A stretch of 16,766 nt of DNA from Scytonema sp. UIC 10036 (GTDB taxonomy: Bacteria; Cyanobacteriota; Cyanobacteriia; Cyanobacteriales; Nostocaceae): positions 1-16,766 of the forward strand of contig NZ_WJFC01000266.1 of NCBI RefSeq assembly GCF_009725235.1, given 5' to 3'. The position numbers and the translations under genes are program-made. This document shows, piece by piece, positions 4,076 through 16,660 of the stretch (positions within the stretch are counted from its first letter, which is position 1; each line of letters starts with the position of its first letter). A model generated the notes under the pieces. It had not been told where the DNA came from and did not search any database. It saw only the letters and a program-made list of their open reading frames with translations.

Positions 4076-6169
4076 ATGTTTATAGCGATCGCTACCCTCA
4101 TCCTCAGTTTCCTAACCCTCCTACCTTTACCTGCTTGGGCAAATCCGATAAAAACCGAACACGTACAAGCACAATTGGTGAGTGAAGTCAATAGCATCCA
4201 ACCAGGACAATCATTTTGGGTGGGGTTGCATTTCCAAATCAAGCCAGGATGGCATACTTATTGGAAAAACCCAGGAGACTCTGGCGCTGCGCCCACTATT
4301 GCTTGGACATTACCATCAGGATTTTCAGCAGGAGAACTGGTGTATCCCTATCCTGAAAGACTTCCGACAAGTGGGTTGATGAATTTTGGCTATAAAAATG
4401 AGGTCATGCTGTTAAGTCAAATTACGACTCCAGCAAATATAAATACCGATAAGCCAATTCAACTCAGTGCTAAAGCTGACTGGTTGGTATGCGAACAAGA
4501 GTGTATTCCAGAAAATGCGACACTAAATCTTAACTTAGAAATAGCGAAAGAGACACCTGTTCCTAACACTAAATGGACGAAGGTTTTTGAGAAAACGCGG
4601 GCTGCTTTACCTCAAGACTCTCCCTGGCAAAGTACTACTCGTATCAATGGGGAAACTTTGACACTCAGGGTGAATGCACAGCAATTGCAAGCAAATCAGA
4701 TTAAGGAAGTCGTATTCTTCCCCAATCAAGATGGTATTATCAATAACGCAGCTGCCCAAAAAGCAAGCTTCGATAAAGATGGCTTAACTGTCGAATTGGA
4801 AAGAGGAAATCGCAGTGATGTCAAACAAGTCAGTGGTGTCCTCGTTCTGCAAGAAGTATTAGATGGACAAATTGCCAATCAAGCATTTACCATCGCAACT
4901 CAAATAGAAACAGCAGCCACTCCACAAGCCACTTCCCCAGCATTATGGAATGTTTTAGGATTGGCATTACTTGGTGGAATCGCCCTCAACCTCATGCCTT
5001 GCGTTTTCCCCGTACTCTCACTTAAGGCATTAAACGTTGTTCAAAAATCAAACTTTAGCAAACAAGAAGTTCGCCTGAGGGGACTCGTATTTACAGCAGG
5101 TGTACTCATAAGTTTTACAGCCCTAGCCACGGTACTGATCGTACTGCGTAGTTTTGGACAGCAAATTGGGTGGGGGTTCCAGCTCCAATCACCCGTGTTT
5201 GTCACTTTGTTAGCGTATTTAATGTTTGCTGTCGGCTTAAGTTTGTCAGGGGTGTTTATCTTTGGCGCTTCCTTAATGGGTATGGGACAAGGTTTAGCAG
5301 CGCGTAACGGTTTATGGGGTGAATTTTTCACAGGAGTTTTTGCCACAGTCGTCGCGACACCGTGTACAGCTCCATTCATGGCGACAGCTATTGGAGTCGC
5401 ACTCACACAGACACCAGGAGTCGCGATCGCTATTTTTCTATTCTTAGGTTTGGGTTTAGCATTTCCTTACCTACTTATCGGTTTTCTTCCCGGTTTGCAA
5501 AAAGTTTTACCCAAACCCGGTGCATGGATGGAAACATTTGCTCAGTTTCTTGCCTTTCCAATGTACGCTGCAACAGCTTGGTTGGTTTGGGTGTTGGCGC
5601 AGCAAACGGGAAGCACTGGTTTAGCCGCAGCCTTATTTGGGTTGGTACTTATAGGTTTTGCTGCTTGGTTGCATCAAAAAACCTACACCATTTCTGGTTG
5701 GACGCGACGCTTTGCTAGTATTGCAGCATTGGTGGTGTTGGGATTTGCCCTAACTTTAGCACAATTACCAAGTAGCATAGCTCCTAATGTTGCTAACTCG
5801 AAGACTCAACAAACTACTTCAAGTGGACTCAATTGGCAACCTTATAATGCTCAAAAATTAGCTGAGTTACGCCAATCTGGGAAACCAGTCTTTGTCAACT
5901 TTTCTGCAGCTTGGTGTATTACTTGTTTAGTCAACGAACGTGTCGCCCTCAATCAATCTGATACGATCGCTGCTTTCCAAGAAAAAAATGTCGCTCTTCT
6001 CAAAGCCGATTGGACAAACCGCGACACCGAAATAACTCAAACCCTAGCAGCTTTTGGACGCAGTGGTGTACCTTTATACTTATTGTATCCAGCTAATTCC
6101 GATACACCGCAAATCTTACCTCAAATTCTCTCTCCACAACAAGTACAAGAAAAGGTAAAAAGTTTGTAG
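4076..6169 (+). CDS. dsbD: DsbD/ScsB-type transmembrane thiol-disulfide reductase
   Basis: A 697-residue membrane protein that carries electrons from cytoplasmic thioredoxin to envelope proteins. A signal peptide ends near AWA (residue 22). A periplasmic domain (about 23-280) has HTYWKNPGDSG and Cys139/Cys143 (CEQEC); a CcdA-like membrane core (about 288-565) has Cys309 in NLMPCVFP and Cys430 in TPCTAPF; a C-terminal thioredoxin domain (about 588-697) has WCITC (Cys614, Cys617). These six are the only cysteines, making three pairs as in the DsbD relay. The N-terminal domain resembles the ScsB branch more than classical DsbD. GAGG lies 11 bases before the ATG. A lipoprotein peroxiredoxin follows on the same strand with no terminator between, suggesting enzyme and substrate. 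In cyanobacteria the compartment could be periplasm or thylakoid lumen. Confidence 0.93.
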   Translation: MFIAIATLILSFLTLLPLPAWANPIKTEHVQAQLVSEVNSIQPGQSFWVGLHFQIKPGWHTYWKNPGDSGAAPTIAWTLPSGFSAGELVYPYPERLPTSGLMNFGYKNEVMLLSQITTPANINTDKPIQLSAKADWLVCEQECIPENATLNLNLEIAKETPVPNTKWTKVFEKTRAALPQDSPWQSTTRINGETLTLRVNAQQLQANQIKEVVFFPNQDGIINNAAAQKASFDKDGLTVELERGNRSDVKQVSGVLVLQEVLDGQIANQAFTIATQIETAATPQATSPALWNVLGLALLGGIALNLMPCVFPVLSLKALNVVQKSNFSKQEVRLRGLVFTAGVLISFTALATVLIVLRSFGQQIGWGFQLQSPVFVTLLAYLMFAVGLSLSGVFIFGASLMGMGQGLAARNGLWGEFFTGVFATVVATPCTAPFMATAIGVALTQTPGVAIAIFLFLGLGLAFPYLLIGFLPGLQKVLPKPGAWMETFAQFLAFPMYAATAWLVWVLAQQTGSTGLAAALFGLVLIGFAAWLHQKTYTISGWTRRFASIAALVVLGFALTLAQLPSSIAPNVANSKTQQTTSSGLNWQPYNAQKLAELRQSGKPVFVNFSAAWCITCLVNERVALNQSDTIAAFQEKNVALLKADWTNRDTEITQTLAAFGRSGVPLYLLYPANSDTPQILPQILSPQQVQEKVKSL

Positions 6170-6257
6170 ATGGCTAATGGCTAATGGCTAATGGCTAATG
6201 GCTAATGGCTAATGGCTAATGGCTAATGGCTAATGGCTAATGGCTAATGGCTAATGG
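6170..6257 (+). repeat. 7-bp tandem array ATGGCTA, 12.6 copies
   Basis: 88 bases of perfect ATGGCTA repeats begin at the base directly after the dsbD TAG stop. Each unit contains an ATG, and every second unit is joined through TAATG, so the array reads as a chain of four-codon frames (ATG GCT AAT GGC TAA) each overlapping the next start by one base. Perfect copies suggest a young or actively homogenised array. Confidence 0.97.
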
Positions 6258-6265
6258 TTTCTGAA

Positions 6266-6293
6266 CAATTAGCAATTAGCAATTAGCAATTAG
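6266..6293 (+). repeat. 7-bp tandem array CAATTAG, 4 copies
   Basis: Four perfect copies of CAATTAG. Read on the other strand the unit is GCTAATT in another register, which differs from the GCTAATG register of the preceding array at one base in seven. The two arrays can therefore fold on each other as a long hairpin with one mismatch per turn of seven. Confidence 0.95.
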
Positions 6294-6328
6294 CAACTAA
6301 CAACTAACAACTAACAACTAACAACTAA
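6294..6328 (+). repeat. 7-bp tandem array CAACTAA, 5 copies
   Basis: Five perfect copies of CAACTAA run directly on from the CAATTAG array and end one base before the ATG of the next gene. This leaves that gene with no Shine-Dalgarno sequence; its ribosome-binding region is repeat DNA. Confidence 0.95.
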
Positions 6329-6998: not shown

Positions 6999-7020
6999 TT
7001 AGCTCCCCTCACCCTCAATC

Positions 7021-7070
7021 CTCGTTCCCAGGCTCTGCCTGGGAATGCCGTCTTTGGAGGCTCCGCCTCC
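7021..7070 (+). repeat. Two-hairpin dispersed repeat, copy 1
   Basis: Hairpin A: TTCCCAGGC (7025-7033) and GCCTGGGAA (7037-7045), 9 pairs with loop TCT. Hairpin B: GGAGGC (7056-7061) and GCCTCC (7065-7070), 6 pairs with loop TCC. The same module in the same orientation recurs at 13725-13774. It lies in the 184 bases between the peroxiredoxin stop and the DUF6887 gene; no T-run follows, so it is a repeat more than a terminator. Confidence 0.85.
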
Positions 7071-7395: not shown

Positions 7396-7513
7396 CCAAC
7401 TGCTCCCCCAAGCCCCATAGACCCGCTTCTGTCCCCGCCCGTACCACCGAAGGGAGCTTCGCAGACGGTGCTCCAATGGCTCCGCCACCGGATCGAGATA
7501 TGACAAGTTTTCA
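7396..7513. repeat. Cluster of palindromic short repeats
   Basis: The space between the converging DUF6887 and YihY genes holds overlapping palindromes: CGAAG (7448-7452) with CTTCG (7457-7461), CACCG (7445-7449) with CGGTG (7466-7470), and GGTG (7467-7470) with CACC (7486-7489). The 10-mer GGAGCTTCGC (7453-7462) is the exact reverse complement of 8758-8767, inside the palindrome inserted in devA, which marks both as related dispersed repeats. Confidence 0.6.
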
Positions 7514-8498: not shown

Positions 8499-8547
8499 CT
8501 ACTCCCTACTCCCTACTCTCTACCCCCTACTCCCCACCCCCTACTAT
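8499..8547. repeat. 7-bp tandem repeat, CTACTCC type
   Basis: Seven contiguous 7-base units: CTACTCC twice, then CTACTCT, CTACCCC, CTACTCC, CCACCCC and CTACTAT. The array runs into the end of devA; the devA stop codon (complement of CTA at 8544-8546) is part of the last unit. Confidence 0.85.
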
Positions 8548-9242
8548 TGCTGTATCCTACCATCTTCCATGCTAACAATGCGATCGGCAATGTCTAGGAT
8601 GCGGTTGTCGTGAGTCACAAGGAGAACAGAACAGCCCTCTTCTTTGGCGAGACGTTGAATAATATCAACAACATCTCGTCCTGTTTTGCTGTCTAGTGAT
8701 GCGGTGGGTTCGTCGGCAAGTAATAATTTAGGTTGAGCAACTAAAGCACGTGCGTTAGCGAAGCTCCTCCGAAGGAGGCTCGCAACCCGTTGTTGTTGTC
8801 CTCCTGACAAATTTGCGGGGTATGCATCCACTTTATCAGCCAAGCCCACAGCTTGCAGTGTGGCGACTGATTTTTCTCGGTACTCTCTTTTGGGAATTTC
8901 TGGATGCAGTTTGAGGGACATACGGACATTACCGTAAGCGGTGAGACATTTGAGCAAATTGTGGTGTTGGAAGATAAAACCAATATTATTGCGAACTTTT
9001 GTTAGCTGTCTTTTACTGATACCTTGTAATTCTTGACCTAAGACTTGCAAGCTACCTTCTTGTACGGTACGCAATCCTCCTATAAGAGAGAGTAGTGTCG
9101 TTTTACCACTTCCAGAAGGTCCGGTGAGGATGACAATCTCTCCTGGGTAAATATTCAAGTTCACATCACTTAGCACGGGTTTACGTAAAGCCCCTTGACC
9201 AAAAGCGTAATTCAGATTTAAAGCAGCTACAGTTGGTTTCAT
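8544..9242 (-). CDS. devA: DevA-type ABC exporter ATP-binding protein with an in-frame insert
   Basis: The 232-residue cytoplasmic ATPase of a DevBCA exporter (MacB/LolD-like). Walker A GPSGSGKT is at 41-48, the Q-loop Gln at 92, signature LSGGQ at 145-149, Walker B LLLADEP at 173-179 and the H-loop His in VTHD at 211. Families of this type read LSGGQ-QQRVAIARAL; here nine residues (SLLRRSFAN, 155-163) stand where one Ile is expected. They are encoded by a palindromic repeat at 8754-8780, giving a net gain of eight residues in the helix after the signature; without it the length would be a normal 224. The frame is kept, but whether the ATPase works is uncertain. devA normally follows devC; here it lies 1.76 kb away, behind a glycosyltransferase gene on the other strand. 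No clear ribosome site is seen at the ATG. Confidence 0.9.
   Translation of the reverse strand: MKPTVAALNLNYAFGQGALRKPVLSDVNLNIYPGEIVILTGPSGSGKTTLLSLIGGLRTVQEGSLQVLGQELQGISKRQLTKVRNNIGFIFQHHNLLKCLTAYGNVRMSLKLHPEIPKREYREKSVATLQAVGLADKVDAYPANLSGGQQQRVASLLRRSFANARALVAQPKLLLADEPTASLDSKTGRDVVDIIQRLAKEEGCSVLLVTHDNRILDIADRIVSMEDGRIQQ
8754..8780 (-). repeat. Palindromic short dispersed repeat inside devA
   Basis: 27 bases encoding residues 155-163 of DevA. Core stem CCTCC (8766-8770) and GGAGG (8774-8778) with loop GAA; outer arms GCGA (8758-8761) and TCGC (8780-8783). Flanking codons are GCG and GCA; with an Ile ATC codon between them the original would have read GCGATCGCA, a HIP1 octamer. Related palindromes lie at 7445-7489 and 14970-14994. 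Confidence 0.8.
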
Positions 9243-9830
9243 AGTGAGTAGATTGAATAACTACTACCTATTATTTAAGAAACTCTTTTGTATCTTTTTG
9301 TTCCTGTATATTGGAAACAAGAGCATTGCCTACCCTACTTGTAGTTGAAAAATTAAATAGGATGGATTACTATGGCAGTCCTGTTTGAGTTATAGAAATT
9401 ATTAACCGCTAAGACGCAAAGAGCGCTAAGAAAAGAAAGAAGAGAGAATTTTACAAATGATTGAGAATTGCTATATATTAGAATTGCAAGGAAGAGTTGA
9501 TTGCGCTTACCTACTGGCATAATCTTTAAGGAAGAGCTACCAAAAATAATTTCATTCTTAGGACTTAGAGGAGTCTCTTTCTTTCAGGAGTAGATAAGGG
9601 GAGATGAAAAAAAATAAAGTTCATATTACAACATTCAAGATTTACTTAATTTTACAAAATTTCATAAATTCATGCTCGCTCGATCGCCTCATTTCAGGCA
9701 GTAAAAGCGATCGCTCTTACGAACTTGTGAAATCTTGTACTCACTTATCAAGTAATTCTTGCTGCTTGATAAAACTTGCGTTCAGCAAAATTTTCTGTCT
9801 TATCTCCGCCTACGTTTTGGGAGTTTGATT
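9243..9830. other. 588-base non-coding region between devA and the glycosyltransferase
   Basis: This divergent region should hold promoters for both neighbours, but no convincing hexamer pair was found. It contains a dispersed repeat (9404-9480), a HIP1 site (9707-9714) and AT-rich filler. Short open frames here have no family resemblance or proper ribosome sites. Confidence 0.5.
9404..9480 (+). repeat. Dispersed repeat: CGC-spaced element plus ATGATTGAGAA element
   Basis: Two known-looking units lie side by side. AACCGCTAAGACGCAAAGAG and the bases after it (9404-9456) resemble 12280-12335, with CGC triplets at the same 8- and 9-base spacing and a shared GAGAAT...TACAAAT end. ATGATTGAGAATTGCTATAT (9457-9476) matches 13880-13899 with one change. 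Confidence 0.7.
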
Positions 9831-10934
9831 ATGCGGATTGCTCAAGTCGCCCCTTTATGGGAAAGGGTTCCACCTCCAGCTTACGGAGGTATTGAGTTAG
9901 TCGTGGGGCTACTGACTGATGAACTGGTTCGACGCGGACATGAAGTTACGCTCTTTGCATCAGGAGATTCTCTGACTCTTGCTAAATTAAAATCTGTTCA
10001 TCCTGTAGCTATAAGACTCGATCCAAGTGTAAAAGAATACAGCGTTTATGAGTCCCTACAACTGAGTTGGGTATACGAGCAAGCGCAAGAGTTCGACATC
10101 ATTCACTCTCACATGGGCTACGCTGCATTGACCTATGCAAATCTAGTAAAAACACCTACAATACATACATTACACGGTATTTTCACACCTGATAATGAAA
10201 AGCTATTTCAATACGCACGTTCTCAACCATACGTTAGTATTTCTAATTCCCAACGAGAAGCAAATTTAGATCTAAATTACGCTGCAACAGTTTACAATGC
10301 TATTGATGTCAATAGCCATAAATTTTATCCCGTTCCGGATAACCCACCTTATCTGGCTTTTCTAGGTCGAATGTCACCAGAAAAAGGACCGCATCTTGCA
10401 ATTGCTATTGCCAAACAGGTGGGTTTACCATTGCGGATGGCTGGTAAAGTAGATGAGTTTAATAGAAAATTTTTTGAAAAAGAAGTTCAACCTCTCATTG
10501 ATGGTCAGCAAATTCAGTATTTAGGTGAAGCCGACCACAACATGAAAAACGAACTTATGGGTAGAGCGATCGCAACCCTATTTCCCATTACCTGGCGAGA
10601 ACCATTTGGTTTGGTGATGATTGAATCAATGGTAGCGGGTACACCCGTCATTGCAATGAACATTGGGTCTACGCCAGAGGTGATTGCCCACAAGCAAACG
10701 GGCTTTTTGTGCAATAATTTAGAAGAATGTATTCAAGCTGTCAGCAAAGTTGCGGACATAGACCGTTACGCCTGTCGTACCTATGTTGAAAACCGCTTTA
10801 ACGTTAACAACATGACTGACAGCTATGAAGCTGCCTATCATCAAGTATTAGCCTCACGGTTTGTTCAAAATAGATCTTTGGATAACTTGAAATTGCCTGC
10901 TCCTGCTACCGCCATGAGTATACCCAGTTTGTAG
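9831..10934 (+). CDS. Family 4 (GT-B) glycosyltransferase
   Basis: A 367-residue cytoplasmic or membrane-associated enzyme that moves a sugar from a nucleotide donor to an acceptor, probably a polysaccharide or glycolipid; the substrates cannot be read from the sequence. The N-terminal Rossmann half has the glycine loop PPAYGGIE (15-22) and SHMGYAAL (93-100); the C-terminal donor half has FLGRMSPEKGPHLAI (177-191) and the GT4 EX7E motif, Glu257 and Glu265, in EPFGLVMIESMVAGTPVI (257-274). The start at 9831 is chosen because GGGAG (9819-9823) lies 7 bases before it and family members begin MRIAQVAP; the frame is open 24 codons further up without support. The gene lies between devC and devA on the opposite strand. 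Its stop codon is inside a dispersed hairpin repeat, so the last residues may not be original. Confidence 0.93.
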   Translation: MRIAQVAPLWERVPPPAYGGIELVVGLLTDELVRRGHEVTLFASGDSLTLAKLKSVHPVAIRLDPSVKEYSVYESLQLSWVYEQAQEFDIIHSHMGYAALTYANLVKTPTIHTLHGIFTPDNEKLFQYARSQPYVSISNSQREANLDLNYAATVYNAIDVNSHKFYPVPDNPPYLAFLGRMSPEKGPHLAIAIAKQVGLPLRMAGKVDEFNRKFFEKEVQPLIDGQQIQYLGEADHNMKNELMGRAIATLFPITWREPFGLVMIESMVAGTPVIAMNIGSTPEVIAHKQTGFLCNNLEECIQAVSKVADIDRYACRTYVENRFNVNNMTDSYEAAYHQVLASRFVQNRSLDNLKLPAPATAMSIPSL

Positions 10935-10958
10935 GGGCGCAATGCCTTGCTCCCCTAC
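10931..10958 (+). repeat. GTAGGGGCGC hairpin repeat, copy 1
   Basis: GTAGGGG (10931-10937) pairs with CCCCTAC (10952-10958) and, past one mismatch, GCAA (10939-10942) with TTGC (10947-10950). The TAG at 10932-10934 is the glycosyltransferase stop codon. A near-identical copy with a perfect 10-pair stem is at 13799-13827. There is no T-run on either side, so terminator action is unproven. Confidence 0.85.
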
Positions 10959-11001
10959 GACTATGGTCTATTTACCTGAAAATGGCTGTAAAAAAAGATG
11001 G

Positions 11002-12246
11002 TTAAAACACATCTGCTGGATCGGCAGAACGAAGTTTACTTGTAGCAATTGCTCCAGAAATAGAACACATTACCAAAGTTAAAATAAAAACTTGCAAGGC
11101 AACACTGACTTTCATTGTTAACGGAATTCTAGTCAGTGTTGCTAACAATTGATAGATACCCAATGAGGAAATAAATCCAGGAATAAACCCCATGAAACCA
11201 AGAATAATTGCTTCTTGAAGCACGACCATGAGGAGCGATTTATCTGAATATCCCATGGCTTTAAGGGTAGCATATTCTGATAAGTGGTCGTTAATGTCAG
11301 CGTAAAGAACTTGATATAAAATGATAACGCCAACGACAAAACCTACAAGAGTCCCAAATTTTAAAATAATTCCCTCTGGCTGCGATTCATGAAATTGTCT
11401 CTCTCTTTGAATCAATTCCTCGTGAGTGAGTATAGCAACATCATCAGGAAGGCGATCGCTTAACCTTTCTTGCACTGTTTTAATATCTGCTCCCTTCTCT
11501 AAAGTCAGCACTCCCAGCCTGATTTGTTTGAGGCTATTTTGTCCAAAACGCTGGGCATAAGTCCAGTCACTCATGATAACATTTCCTTTATCATTGATAG
11601 TACTGCCCATACTAAAAAGTCCAACGGCAAAAGTGCGGCGATTGTCCATGAGAGTTGCGACTTCTTCGCTCTTCTCAAGCCGTTTTGAAATGTCCCCAAG
11701 AGATGCTTGAGAGAGGCGATCGAACAAGACAGCATCAGGAACAGCTAATTTTGCTATTTGTTGGTTGACTTCTGGTATATTCAACACGGGAGGTTGGGCT
11801 GGGTTCAAGGCAATGACTCTAACTTCATTGCCAAACATACGCGGACCTCTGCTTCTAGCTTTGTTTGCATTCGCTTGTGGAGAAGATAATTGATTGGGAT
11901 TTACCCAATTTGCCCTCCCTATATAGATTGGGCTTGCGGATACGACACCATCGACTGCTGCAGCTTGATAAAGGTAAGCGCGGGGAAAGGATATCCTAAA
12001 GAATAAGCTTGGGCTGAATGATGAAACTAACACTAAATCTCCTGTCAGGCTTTCATGAAGTTTTGTTGTTCCATCTGTTAGCATTGCGAGGAGTCCTAGT
12101 TGGGTAAACATCAAAATGTTGGCGAAGCAAACTCCTGTTGTTGCAACAGCAAGCCGAACTTTTTGATGGGATAATTGCGCCCAAGCTAGGGGTGTCTCGA
12201 AGTCAATGTTTTTTTGTAGGGATTTTATAAGATGGGGAAGTTTCAT
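11002..12246 (-). CDS. devC: DevC-type ABC exporter permease
   Basis: A 414-residue inner-membrane permease of the DevBCA exporter, FtsX/MacB-like. It opens with the family pattern TPLAWAQLSHQKVRLAVATTGV (18-39); helix 1 is about 32-54, a large periplasmic domain follows (55-293), then helices about 295-315, 340-362 and 380-400. The FtsX-type segment HLSEYATLKAMGYSDKSLL (321-339) lies between helices 2 and 3. It should pair with DevB in the periplasm and with DevA in the cytoplasm. In Anabaena the homologous exporter builds the heterocyst glycolipid layer, but many paralogues exist and the cargo here is unknown. It is 178 bases after devB, a gap filled by repeats where dev genes are usually closely spaced, and devA does not follow directly. 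Confidence 0.93.
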   Translation of the reverse strand: MKLPHLIKSLQKNIDFETPLAWAQLSHQKVRLAVATTGVCFANILMFTQLGLLAMLTDGTTKLHESLTGDLVLVSSFSPSLFFRISFPRAYLYQAAAVDGVVSASPIYIGRANWVNPNQLSSPQANANKARSRGPRMFGNEVRVIALNPAQPPVLNIPEVNQQIAKLAVPDAVLFDRLSQASLGDISKRLEKSEEVATLMDNRRTFAVGLFSMGSTINDKGNVIMSDWTYAQRFGQNSLKQIRLGVLTLEKGADIKTVQERLSDRLPDDVAILTHEELIQRERQFHESQPEGIILKFGTLVGFVVGVIILYQVLYADINDHLSEYATLKAMGYSDKSLLMVVLQEAIILGFMGFIPGFISSLGIYQLLATLTRIPLTMKVSVALQVFILTLVMCSISGAIATSKLRSADPADVF

Positions 12247-12279
12247 TATGATTTTGCTTTTAAGGGGTTATGAGAGAAA

Positions 12280-12335
12280 AACCGCAGAGGCGCTGAGGAC
12301 GCAGAGGAAGAGAGGGAGAATAATTGTACAAATTC
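12280..12335 (+). repeat. CGC-spaced dispersed repeat in the devB-devC spacer
   Basis: ACCGCAGAGGCGCTGAGGAC and the bases after it resemble 9405-9456: CGC triplets are spaced 8 and 9 bases in both, and both continue through a purine-rich stretch to GAGAAT...TACAAAT. Such elements are common between cyanobacterial genes. Confidence 0.6.
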
Positions 12336-12390
12336 AAAATATGTTTCGACAGAGAGTTGGGTAAAATCCAGTTCAAATGGGACTTTTTTA

Positions 12391-12420
12391 ATCCAAAATC
12401 CAAAATCCAAAATCCAAAAT
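12391..12420. repeat. 7-bp tandem repeat, ATCCAAA x4
   Basis: Four perfect copies of ATCCAAA (12391-12418) plus two bases. It lies directly downstream of the devB stop, inside the devB-devC spacer. Confidence 0.9.
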
Positions 12421-12424
12421 AGTA

Positions 12425-13630
12425 TCATTTTGTATCAATTTTGACTCTTACTTGCATCCCTGTTAAGGCGGCGACTTTGGGGCTATCTTCTCGGTTAAGT
12501 CGGATTTTGACTTCGACGACACGAGCATTGACGTCTGTTGTGGGATTGGTTTGGTCTTGGTTGAGGCGGGTTTTGCCAATTTGCAAACCAATGCCATCGA
12601 CTTTTCCTTTGAGTTCGCCTTGAAAACCGCCGTATTCACTTGTAATTGTTGCTTGATGTCCCAACCGAACTTTGGCAATATCTGTTTCGTATACCTCTGC
12701 GATCGCATACATTTGGTTTGTCTTTCCCAGTTCTGCAATTCCTTCTTGGGTGTTTACTTGTTCGCCCACACGTGTATTGATTCTCAAGATTTGTCCTGCA
12801 ATGGGAACTCTGACTAAGGTATTGTCTAATTCGGCTTTGCGCTGTTCGACTTGAATCAGGGCTTGCTCTAACTCTGCTTTGGCAATTTCAACATCGACTG
12901 GGCGAACTTCCTGCAATTTCTTTAAATTTGCTTGTTCCTTTTCTAGTTGTGCTTGTAATGTTGTTGTGGTATTTTCTAGCTCTGCTTTACTTTGTAGAAG
13001 AGTGGCTTGAGCTTTGTCAAATTCCTCTCGCGCATTGTCATAATCTGATTTACTGATAGCACCTTCATTGGATAAAGCAAGGTTTCGTTCGTATTTCAGT
13101 TTGGCATTGCGGAGGGTTGCTTCTACTTGGGCGATCGCAGCTTCTTTCTGCTTGGTTTCCGTTCGGATGCGGGCTTCTAATTCTGCAATGGTTGCGCGTT
13201 GAGCGACAATTTCGCCCTGCTTGAAGTCTCCTTGCTGAATTTTGAGCAATTGCGATCGCTTGACTGTCACATTCGCTTGAGCATCCCTCAGTTGTTGTTC
13301 GGCTCTATCCCTTCCCTGAAGGGTGGCGATGACTTGATTGGCTTTAACAAAATCGCCTTCGTTGACAAATATTTGGTTAACGCGGCTGTCTTGAGCATTT
13401 GCTACCGAAATCTTGATAACATCTCCTTCTGGTATCAATTTTCCTAAAGCCACTACTCGATTCGTAACATTAGGGCTTGTTGTGGGAGTTTCTTGAGCAG
13501 TATTATCCTGAGCTTTGAGAGTACCACAAGCGGTACACAAGCCCAAACAACTGAGAAGGGCAATGTAAGTGATACACTGCTGAGTACCAAAAGATACACT
13601 TTGGGAATGTTTACAGCGAGGCTGAACCAT
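12425..13630 (-). CDS. devB: DevB-type membrane fusion (HlyD-like) protein
   Basis: A 401-residue periplasmic adaptor of the DevBCA exporter, joining the DevC-DevA pump to an outer-membrane channel. A hydrophobic N-terminus (19-36) is either a membrane anchor or a lipoprotein signal: ALLSC at 24-28 fits a lipobox, and Cys32 and Cys35 follow. The first half of the lipoyl-like domain is about 69-104 (VNQIFVNEGDFVKANQVIATLQ), a long coiled coil hairpin spans about 106-270, the second lipoyl half is TLVRVPIAGQILRINTRVGEQV (271-292), and a beta-barrel part follows with YETDIAKVRLGHQATIT (314-330). The C-terminus VAALTGMQVRVKIDTK is typical. It is first in the devB-devC unit. No NtcA-type GTA-N8-TAC site was found just upstream. 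Confidence 0.93.
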   Translation of the reverse strand: MVQPRCKHSQSVSFGTQQCITYIALLSCLGLCTACGTLKAQDNTAQETPTTSPNVTNRVVALGKLIPEGDVIKISVANAQDSRVNQIFVNEGDFVKANQVIATLQGRDRAEQQLRDAQANVTVKRSQLLKIQQGDFKQGEIVAQRATIAELEARIRTETKQKEAAIAQVEATLRNAKLKYERNLALSNEGAISKSDYDNAREEFDKAQATLLQSKAELENTTTTLQAQLEKEQANLKKLQEVRPVDVEIAKAELEQALIQVEQRKAELDNTLVRVPIAGQILRINTRVGEQVNTQEGIAELGKTNQMYAIAEVYETDIAKVRLGHQATITSEYGGFQGELKGKVDGIGLQIGKTRLNQDQTNPTTDVNARVVEVKIRLNREDSPKVAALTGMQVRVKIDTK

Positions 13631-13724
13631 AGTAACGATAGCGCTTCTCGTTCGGATATAATATAACCTGGGTGATAAAAAAATCGGTAATGACTAAAGT
13701 AATAAGATGGTGCTGACCCCCCAC

Positions 13725-13774
13725 CTCGTTCCCAGCCTGAGGCTGGGAATGCCTATTGGGAGGCTCCGCCTCCC
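13725..13774 (+). repeat. Two-hairpin dispersed repeat, copy 2
   Basis: Hairpin A: TTCCCAGCC (13729-13737) and GGCTGGGAA (13741-13749), loop TGA. Hairpin B: GGGAGGC (13758-13764) and GCCTCCC (13768-13774), loop TCC. Compared with 7021-7070, one G-C pair in hairpin A has become C-G on both sides, so pairing is kept. Confidence 0.88.
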
Positions 13775-14237: not shown

Positions 14238-14424
14238 GGTTCTTCCGTACTTAGTGGGCTAATTTCATCTAAAACTTTTTTGAAAGCTTTGTGTAGTCAG
14301 CTTTTTAAGCATTATCTAAGCTAGATCGATCCATAAAGCACTTAATCACCGCATTGAAATCCCATACAATCAGGTTCAGATACGAAGCTTATTGATAATT
14401 TAGCCCACTAAGTACGGAAGAACC
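14238..14424. mobile_element. MITE-like element with 25-bp perfect terminal inverted repeats
   Basis: The bases at 14238-14262 (starting GGTTCTTCCG, ending GTGGGCTAA) are the exact reverse complement of 14400-14424 (starting TTAGCCCAC, ending CGGAAGAACC). The 137 bases between carry no long frame in any direction. AAC lies just outside both ends (14235-14237 and 14425-14427), a possible 3-base target duplication. This suits a non-autonomous element moved by a transposase from elsewhere. A simple large hairpin is the alternative. Confidence 0.65.
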
Positions 14425-14994: not shown

Positions 14995-15067
14995 AACCGT
15001 GTTTCGCTACCTAATTTCTTCTCTATTTCAGCGATCGCCACCTTAATTAAAAAATTGGAAGCACAAC

Positions 15068-16660
15068 TTAAGTGAGTCCAAACCTTTCGTGAAGAATACA
15101 AGCACTTAGCATTTTCATCAAAATTATATCAATGGAAGCACGTTGGCTTTCACTCATTATTGGTAATTTATCTAGCAAATTAATGACTGCTGCATGGTTA
15201 TAGAAAGGTACAGAAGACATCAAAGAACTCCGCAGAGTATCTTGGACAAGTTGCTGTAGGGCTTCGTTTGGTTTGAAAGTTGAAGGTGGAGCTAGAAATG
15301 GATGCTTTTGGCGGTTATACATCGTATCAGTTATAAATGGCTTTGCTGCTTCTCTTAGTACATATTTTTCAGTCAATCCACGAATCTTGAGTGCAACGGG
15401 CATATTGCAAACTAATTCCACAACTTTGTGATCCAAAAAAGGAAGCCGTCCTTCAATAGAATGTGCCATTTCAACACCATCACCTAACATCCGTAAAAGG
15501 TAATTAGGTAAGATAGTTTTAGACCATAAATACTGAGATTGGTGTACAGGCTCCCTTCCCTTTAATTGTTTTTGTACATCTATTTGATTAAAAAATACAC
15601 GATAAACATCACTGTGTAGAACTTGTGCAATAAAGTCCTGTGAATATAAAGGCATAGATCTAAGATATCCCTCAGCCGAAGCGTGCATCCAAGCTGGGGC
15701 AAATCCTAACAAACGCTGAACACTATTTAAAGCTTGATTTGAGTTATTTTCAGCTAATAAAATTCCTTCTGAAACTTTATTCTTTAACTTCAGTTCTTCT
15801 AACAAAAGTTTTACTGTCTGCTCATCTTGTCCTTGTTAATTGTGGAGCAACATATCTTGGCGGAAATGAACATAGCCTCCAAAGATTTCATCTGAACCTT
15901 CACCTGTAAGTACAACTTTATAGCCTGCATCTCGTACAGATCGACTTAACAGATATTTTGCAGTTGTATGGGCATTAATACATCGCATTTCACAATGCCA
16001 AATGGAATCGGCAAAATGTTCAGCTAAGTCCGATTGGCGAACAAGAATAGTCTGTAAATTAGCACCAGTATGTGCTGCCATTTCACGAGCAAGTGGTTCT
16101 TCGTTATAAGCTTCATCGTCAAAAGCAAGAGTAAATGCCTGAATGGGAGAAGAACTATGATGTACTGCCATACCTAAAACCGTAGATGAATCAAGACCAC
16201 CACTGAGATAACAACCAACTGGCACATCAGCCCTCAAACGCAATTGGATAGCTTCATCTAATGTATGACGAAGTTGTTCAATGTAATCCTCTTCTTTGTA
16301 CTGAGGTAAAGAATCATTAATCAGTGGATAATCAAAATCCCAATAACGATGTAGCCCTATTCCAGAGCGAGAGGCTAACAAAAAATATCCTGGTGGCACT
16401 TGATAAACATTAGCAAACGTGGTAAGGTCTTCAGACAGAACGCCGCATTCAAATTGCAAAAAAGATTCACGATCCCAAGAAGCTGGGACACCCGCAGCAA
16501 GTAAAGCTTTGACTTCAGATGCTAGATAAAGAGTATTTTCATAAATACTGTAATACAGAGGCTTGATGCCAAAACGATCTCGTGCTGCAAATAGTAAATC
16601 ATTACGTTCATCCCAAATGACAAAAGCAAACTCACCCCTCAGAGGATGTTTGAAAAGTGG
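15068..16660 (-). pseudogene. asnB: Decayed glutamine-dependent asparagine synthetase
   Basis: The remains of a class II asparagine synthetase, which moves glutamine nitrogen to aspartate with ATP. The end of the glutaminase domain is readable from LRGEFAFVIWDERN (from 16642 down) through ARDRFGIKPLYY; the ATP loop SGGLDSS is near 16200, then TGEGSDEIFGGY, and the synthetase domain runs on to EGRLPFLDHKVVEL and the C-terminus at 15068. Two lesions are visible. An in-frame TAA at 15836-15838 follows MLLHN; the frame resumes at once as QGQDEQTVKLLLEELK, so one change (for example CAA to TAA) explains it. Upstream the frame meets TAA at 16661-16663 and family similarity stops, so the first part, including catalytic Cys2, is missing and replaced by repeat DNA. 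An open frame starting at TTG 15805 should not be annotated as a separate intact gene. Confidence 0.88.

Follow-up and report, generated by a model that had tools for sequence, protein, structure and literature searches.

A short hairpin repeat inserted in frame at a HIP1 site in devA of Scytonema sp. UIC 10036, and its recurrence in related cyanobacterial genomes

The devA locus and its insert

The window, by which we mean the whole 16,766-nucleotide stretch of contig NZ_WJFC01000266.1 of Scytonema sp. UIC 10036 that was analysed, carries devA, devC and devB, which encode components of one exporter (Table 1). The DevA protein scores 330.2 bits against the family model TIGR02982, above its cut-off of 295.8, and the natural insert-free homologue P0001 scores 347.7 bits against the same model. 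A glycosyltransferase gene (window 9759-10934) lies between devC and devA on the opposite strand. The same arrangement is present in G194, one of the two nearest genomes found; in the other, G195, the glycosyltransferase gene adjoins devA. The regions fetched from genomes G087 and G026 contain no match to this gene, and devA and devC are close together in both.

The first-pass annotation placed an in-frame palindrome just past the ABC signature of DevA, and this can be read directly in the sequence. The protein runs LSGGQQQRVA-SLLRRSFAN-ARALV, with nine codons in place of one and thus a net gain of eight residues. That annotation also proposed looking for an ungapped RVAIARAL in sister strains, and RVAIARAL is indeed ungapped, with a single Ile, in all 21 relatives aligned. 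A single residue occupies the insert position in each of the 120 homologues listed (7999 scored; 119 were counted by pattern and P0120, a signature variant, by eye), and none of these has the extra residues without the palindrome. The residues bordering the insert, R152, V153 and A154 before it and A164, R165, A166 and L167 after it, are invariant among 50 aligned sequences.

On the forward strand, window 8752-8783 reads GCGTTAGCGAAGCTCCTCCGAAGGAGGCTCGC, and the stem of the element can be written as GCGA-AGCT-CCTCC-GAA-GGAGG-C-TCGC. Paired stem changes are seen by eye among element variants. The isolated 32-mer folds mildly better than its shuffles (z -1.56, and -1.27 for the other strand). 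A 28-base version, allowing up to 3 mismatches, has one match in the window, and any match at all was obtained in 0 of 200 shuffles. It is the dispersal of the element described below, rather than its folding energy, that shows the element not to be a product of chance. The 10-mer that the first-pass annotation reported at window 7453-7462 is present, and the stretch around it lacks the GCGTTA head of the element, so it is not counted as a copy.

The window contains several other repeats. Inverted repeats of 28 nt, 96% complementary and 131 nt apart, give window 14238-14424 the look of a miniature transposon, and a 30-nt palindromic repeat is present in two copies, 87% alike, at window 7020-7049 and 13724-13753. 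Seven-base tandem repeats, with copies spaced 14 nt, occur at window 6170-6321, 205-260 and 8499-8547. Window 15063-16649, at the asnB-like end, matches a plasmid of Nostoc sp. ATCC 53789 with 92.8% identity.

Table 1. Genes of the exporter and parts of the hairpin element, in window coordinates
Feature	Position	Strand	Description	Basis
devA	8544..9242	-	232 aa, DevA-family ABC exporter ATP-binding subunit	NCBIfam TIGR02982
devC	11002..12246	-	permease, same exporter as devA	NCBIfam TIGR01185, 342.2 bits
devB	12425..13630	-	membrane fusion protein, same exporter as devA	NCBIfam TIGR02971, 277.6 bits
SLLRRSFAN codons	8754..8780	-	DevA residues 155-163; one Ile codon in relatives	
Hairpin element	8752..8783	+	32 nt on former HIP1 site, net +24 nt	
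GCG	8752..8754	+	left part common to HIP1	aligned to empty sites L126, L127
TTA	8755..8757	+	TTA of GCGTTA head	
GCGAAGC	8758..8764	+	GCGNAGC in wider family; required by looser search pattern	
CCTCC-GAA-GGAGG	8766..8778	+	hairpin	
TCGC	8780..8783	+	right part common to HIP1; preceding HIP1 A absent	empty-site alignment

The empty site in devA

A set of 217 genomes from the family of homologue L003 was searched with devA. The nearest genomes found were G194, with 90% DNA identity, and G195, with 93% across the first 420 bases. At the position of the element, both have GCGATCGC, the HIP1 octamer, a net difference of 24 nt from the window, and the octamer is present in 19 of 29 orthologous devA loci aligned across the site. 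The earlier claim that the repeat had entered a HIP1 octamer in devA in frame therefore holds, the empty GCGATCGC being present in two of the two nearest genomes. These empty sites show that the element entered HIP1 behind GCG, that the A was lost and that GCG...TCGC was left at its ends. As 24 is divisible by three and the devA frame is an open frame of the element, eight residues are added.

A search for the 26-base core of the element, allowing up to 3 mismatches, gave no copy in G194 and one in G195, at 2 mismatches, so the source of the devA copy was not found in these genomes. Because the copy has the commonest form of the core and is absent from the listed homologues, we infer that it is recent. 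The same two genomes each carry 30 nt extra at window 4894-4895, in a dsbD-like gene, with letters that differ between them.

Copies in related genomes

The first-pass annotation took the repeat to be dispersed, and the core, at up to 1 mismatch, was found at 33 places in 21 of the 217 related genomes, 18 of them exact; a reversed-pattern control of the core gave 0 matches in the same 217 genomes. The head GCGTTA is present in 31 of these 33 copies, the others being L117 (ACGTTA) and L149 (GCGTAA). The palindrome of the first-pass annotation stands, with its left edge moved outwards, as the element extends two bases further on that side. Insert-free relatives of L117 read ACGATCGC, so the first base of the element seems to be part of the target. 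A looser pattern, GCGTTAGCGNAGC...CGC, was present, among the matches listed, in all 10 genomes tried, and its control gave 0. Classification of 104 copies yielded 51 32-mers, 17 29-mers and 14 33-mers; the 32-mers are over-represented here because most copies came via the core search.

HIP1 as the insertion target

To find empty sites, the two flanks of each of 27 copies were linked by two unknown bases and searched in the 217 genomes, and 30 returned loci plus 20 further chosen places were read. Insert-free relatives across the site were found for 18 copies, the other nine having none among the loci read. Exact HIP1 is present in at least one relative for 14 of the 18; L117, L118 and L121 are one mismatch away and L150 two. 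The second set comprised 17 copies, of which 13 were 29-mers; seven copies had insert-free relatives and ten had none among the loci read. At least one relative has exact HIP1 for L220, L261, L263 and L264, L269 is one mismatch away, and L212 and L218 are two mismatches away at best. When the sets are combined, exact HIP1 occurs in at least one insert-free relative for 18 of 25 copies, 22 of 25 are within one mismatch and three of 25 are at two; 19 of the 44 copies queried had no insert-free relative among the fetched loci. HIP1 itself occurs only about 0.7 times per kb (84 loci), and its presence at the insertion sites is therefore beyond chance.

The element as coding sequence

Four of the six frames of the element are open and a net gain of 24 nt keeps the reading frame, so copies become protein. 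A copy was called in frame from open frames of at least 120 codons after a scripted swap of the element for HIP1. By this measure 30 of the 32-mers are in frame, seven bring a stop and 14 lie outside such frames. Four 29-mers are in frame, two bring a stop and 11 lie outside, and the 33-mers comprise eight frameshifts and six copies outside such frames. Dropping repeated 32-mers, recognised by their leading residues, leaves 24 in frame versus seven with a stop, or 23 versus seven when L138 and L140 are treated as one site. As this ratio is close to the four of six open frames, we make no claim of selection for frame, and the good frame fit of the 32-mers may be passive. The data do not establish the earlier proposal that survival of the frame is why the insert was retained, since frame-shifting and stop-bearing copies are likewise found in long ORFs.

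The peptide VSEAPPKEA or near forms of it occurs at 11 sites, and the devA peptide SLLRRSFAN or near forms occurs in ORFs at L121, L134, L146 and L149. Among the genes carrying the element are those that we take to be trpA (L137), rsmH (L138-L142) and a KsgA-like gene (L150).

Condition of DevA and its exporter

The window devA contains no stop or frameshift. Its dN/dS versus G194 is 0.086, the lowest of eight genes compared, which indicates that DevA has been under constraint. In G195, some 2.4 kb of DNA (L127, about 10285-12598) interrupts devA and contains ORFs of 221 and 511 aa, presumably an IS607-type, serine-recombinase-like TnpA and a TnpB, respectively. There are 10 devC-like matches in G194 and nine in G195, some of them weak. 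Given the split gene in G195 and the several devC-like matches in the two genomes, the exporter seems dispensable in this clade.

The eight residues would lengthen the signature helix or loop out from it. In models of low confidence (mean pLDDT 55.7 for the window DevA and 58.8 for P0001), the post-signature helix spans 147-168 in the window protein versus 147-160 in P0001, which is a hint only.

Shared sites in rsmH and at L264

An identical 32-mer is present at one HIP1 site of rsmH (L138-L142) in five genomes, and a search with a 24-base core found no other exact copy in any of the five. All 23 other relatives fetched are insert-free at this site. A tree built from the flanks needs at least five changes to account for the carriers, four of them forced by well-supported branches. 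Shuffled labels need a mean of 4.7 changes, and the carriers need no fewer. A single clade of carriers is rejected (p-AU 7e-60, for a group defined by carrying the element). Within 100 nt on each side of the element, 0 of 200 columns are linked to carriage at p<0.01 and one is at p<0.05; 401-600 nt to the left, 12 of 200 columns are linked at p<0.05, one of them at p<0.01. A hitchhiking flank was rejected at this site, no transferred tract having been detected around the element.

At a second shared site (L264, L341 and L342), G140 and G144 carry one and the same variant and G120 carries a two-base derivative of it. Exact HIP1 is present in 13 of the 15 insert-free relatives read. At this site the flanks of G144 and G120 are 96% identical, so those two copies may share descent.

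Relation to known repeats

Elhai and co-workers are said to have found the SDR5 repeat of Nostoc punctiforme and its relatives only within HIP1. The predicted SDR5 hairpin is reported to be backed by compensatory changes. According to PMC4390886, many cyanobacterial genomes have HIP1 in strong excess and the biological role of the octamer is not settled; the paper refers to Elhai et al. 2008 (Genome Research 18:1484) for SDR5 inserting precisely between nucleotides 3 and 4 of HIP1. On that description, the devA element resembles SDR5 in being a very small hairpin repeat of Nostocales genomes that sits inside HIP1 after the third base. The 29-mers (net +21, ending ATCGC) fit the SDR5 position as given there, and insert-free relatives have exact HIP1 for L261 and L263 and one mismatch for L269. 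The devA copy, in contrast, is a 32-mer whose stem is longer; it adds a net 24 nt, lacks the HIP1 A and lies in frame within an ORF, in a comparison where SDR5 is represented by that description. It keeps GCG and ends CTCGC, and so departs from exact insertion between nucleotides 3 and 4. As the 29-mers fit and the 32-mer lacks the A, we name the element SDR5-type, not proven SDR5. With this usage, the window devA very probably carries a copy of an SDR5-type 32-nt hairpin that entered GCGATCGC behind its GCG, replaced the A and lengthened the gene by a net 24 nt.

The palindromic elements of Rickettsia (RPEs) are longer than the cyanobacterial element. They also differ in belonging to another phylum, the insertion site here being HIP1. 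RPEs lie in frame within ORFs likely to encode functional proteins, according to PMC3733652; the likeness is of a palindromic repeat in frame within ORFs and is one of behaviour. The same paper reports GTAG-tagged REP families in Anabaena and Nostoc (cyanobacterial GTAG-12, -15 and -16) and, for several species, REPs located within genes. GTAG- or CGTC-tagged REPs are thus similar to the extent that they are short hairpin repeats of related organisms, some of them within genes. The literature covered by our search, partly in excerpt and with the original SDR paper outside its reach, contains no report of in-frame HIP1 repeats in cyanobacteria.

Alternative readings

That DevA has long had these residues as a lineage-specific loop, palindromic by accident, is extremely improbable: the loop is absent from all 120 listed homologues, including P0001 at 97% alignment identity, and different genes in different genomes contain the same 32-mer. 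Nothing was found in favour of this reading; the low dN/dS speaks to constraint on DevA. This value and the otherwise open frame favour a DevA that still works with the insert, the peptide looping out or extending the helix harmlessly, and so do the element-derived peptides present in further long ORFs, rsmH of five genomes among them. The invariance of the residues on both sides of the insert counts against it, however, and the intact codons say little because a recent insert leaves decay no time. We consider a working DevA somewhat unlikely, and the insert probably impairs the DevA ATPase. As to the kind of element, size and hairpin resemble those of REPs, and the REP families noted above occur in Anabaena and Nostoc and within genes, so movement of a REP-type element by a RAYT (REP-associated tyrosine transposase) has to be weighed. 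It is nonetheless very unlikely, since the copies inspected have neither a GTAG nor a CGTC end tag, their ends being GCGTTA (or close) and CGC by eye, and since the sites are HIP1. Overall, the devA insert is real, recent and in frame, a longer-stem variant of an element whose kind is already known.

Inheritance of the rsmH copies from a common ancestor, with precise loss in most relatives, would account for the presence of one variant in all five carriers and for exact HIP1 in 21 of the 23 insert-free relatives. We regard it as distinctly unlikely: the element is 32/32 identical among carriers, whereas the flanks are just 74-78% identical between the two clades, and the carriers are unpaired on the tree and no more clustered than under shuffled labels. 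Recent arrival at rsmH is the simplest reading, and the recurrence there may reflect separate insertions at a hot spot, a very short tract passed on laterally, or precise loss. Copies of the element that lie in frame within genes and recur at one position in different lineages lack a good explanation.

Movement and implications

Our favoured guess is that the element would move by copying through a folded single strand of RNA or DNA, with cutting at HIP1. We also put forward, speculatively and as a fairly unlikely idea, that the same variant returns to the same HIP1 across lineages, either from outside the chromosome, on a lateral template or episome, or by reversible site-directed insertion with precise excision restoring HIP1. 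Searches with the 32-mer pattern and one 29-mer pattern gave 0 matches in viral_contigs, the phage collection gave one weak match (E 0.9) and plasmids had no match at E 0.1. Relaxing the limit to E 10 brought up 13 plasmid records, three of them cyanobacterial: one from Nostoc edaphicum and two from Chroococcidiopsis, each at E 9 over all 32 bases at 81%. The three plasmid elements start GCGTTCGCG (L355, 2501-2532; L356 and L357, 1501-1532) and lie inside genes annotated as arylsulfatase or cation diffusion facilitator transporter.

An element that lands in HIP1 and keeps the frame amounts to a recurring natural experiment, in which the same short peptides are placed in many ORFs and the insertions can be traced at defined sites. 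The recurrence at shared sites is more interesting than the devA insert itself. With both carriers and insert-free relatives available, the rsmH and L264 sites make the movement of very small elements directly testable. If the same variants do return to the same sites, they would feed ready-made eight-residue peptides into conserved proteins.
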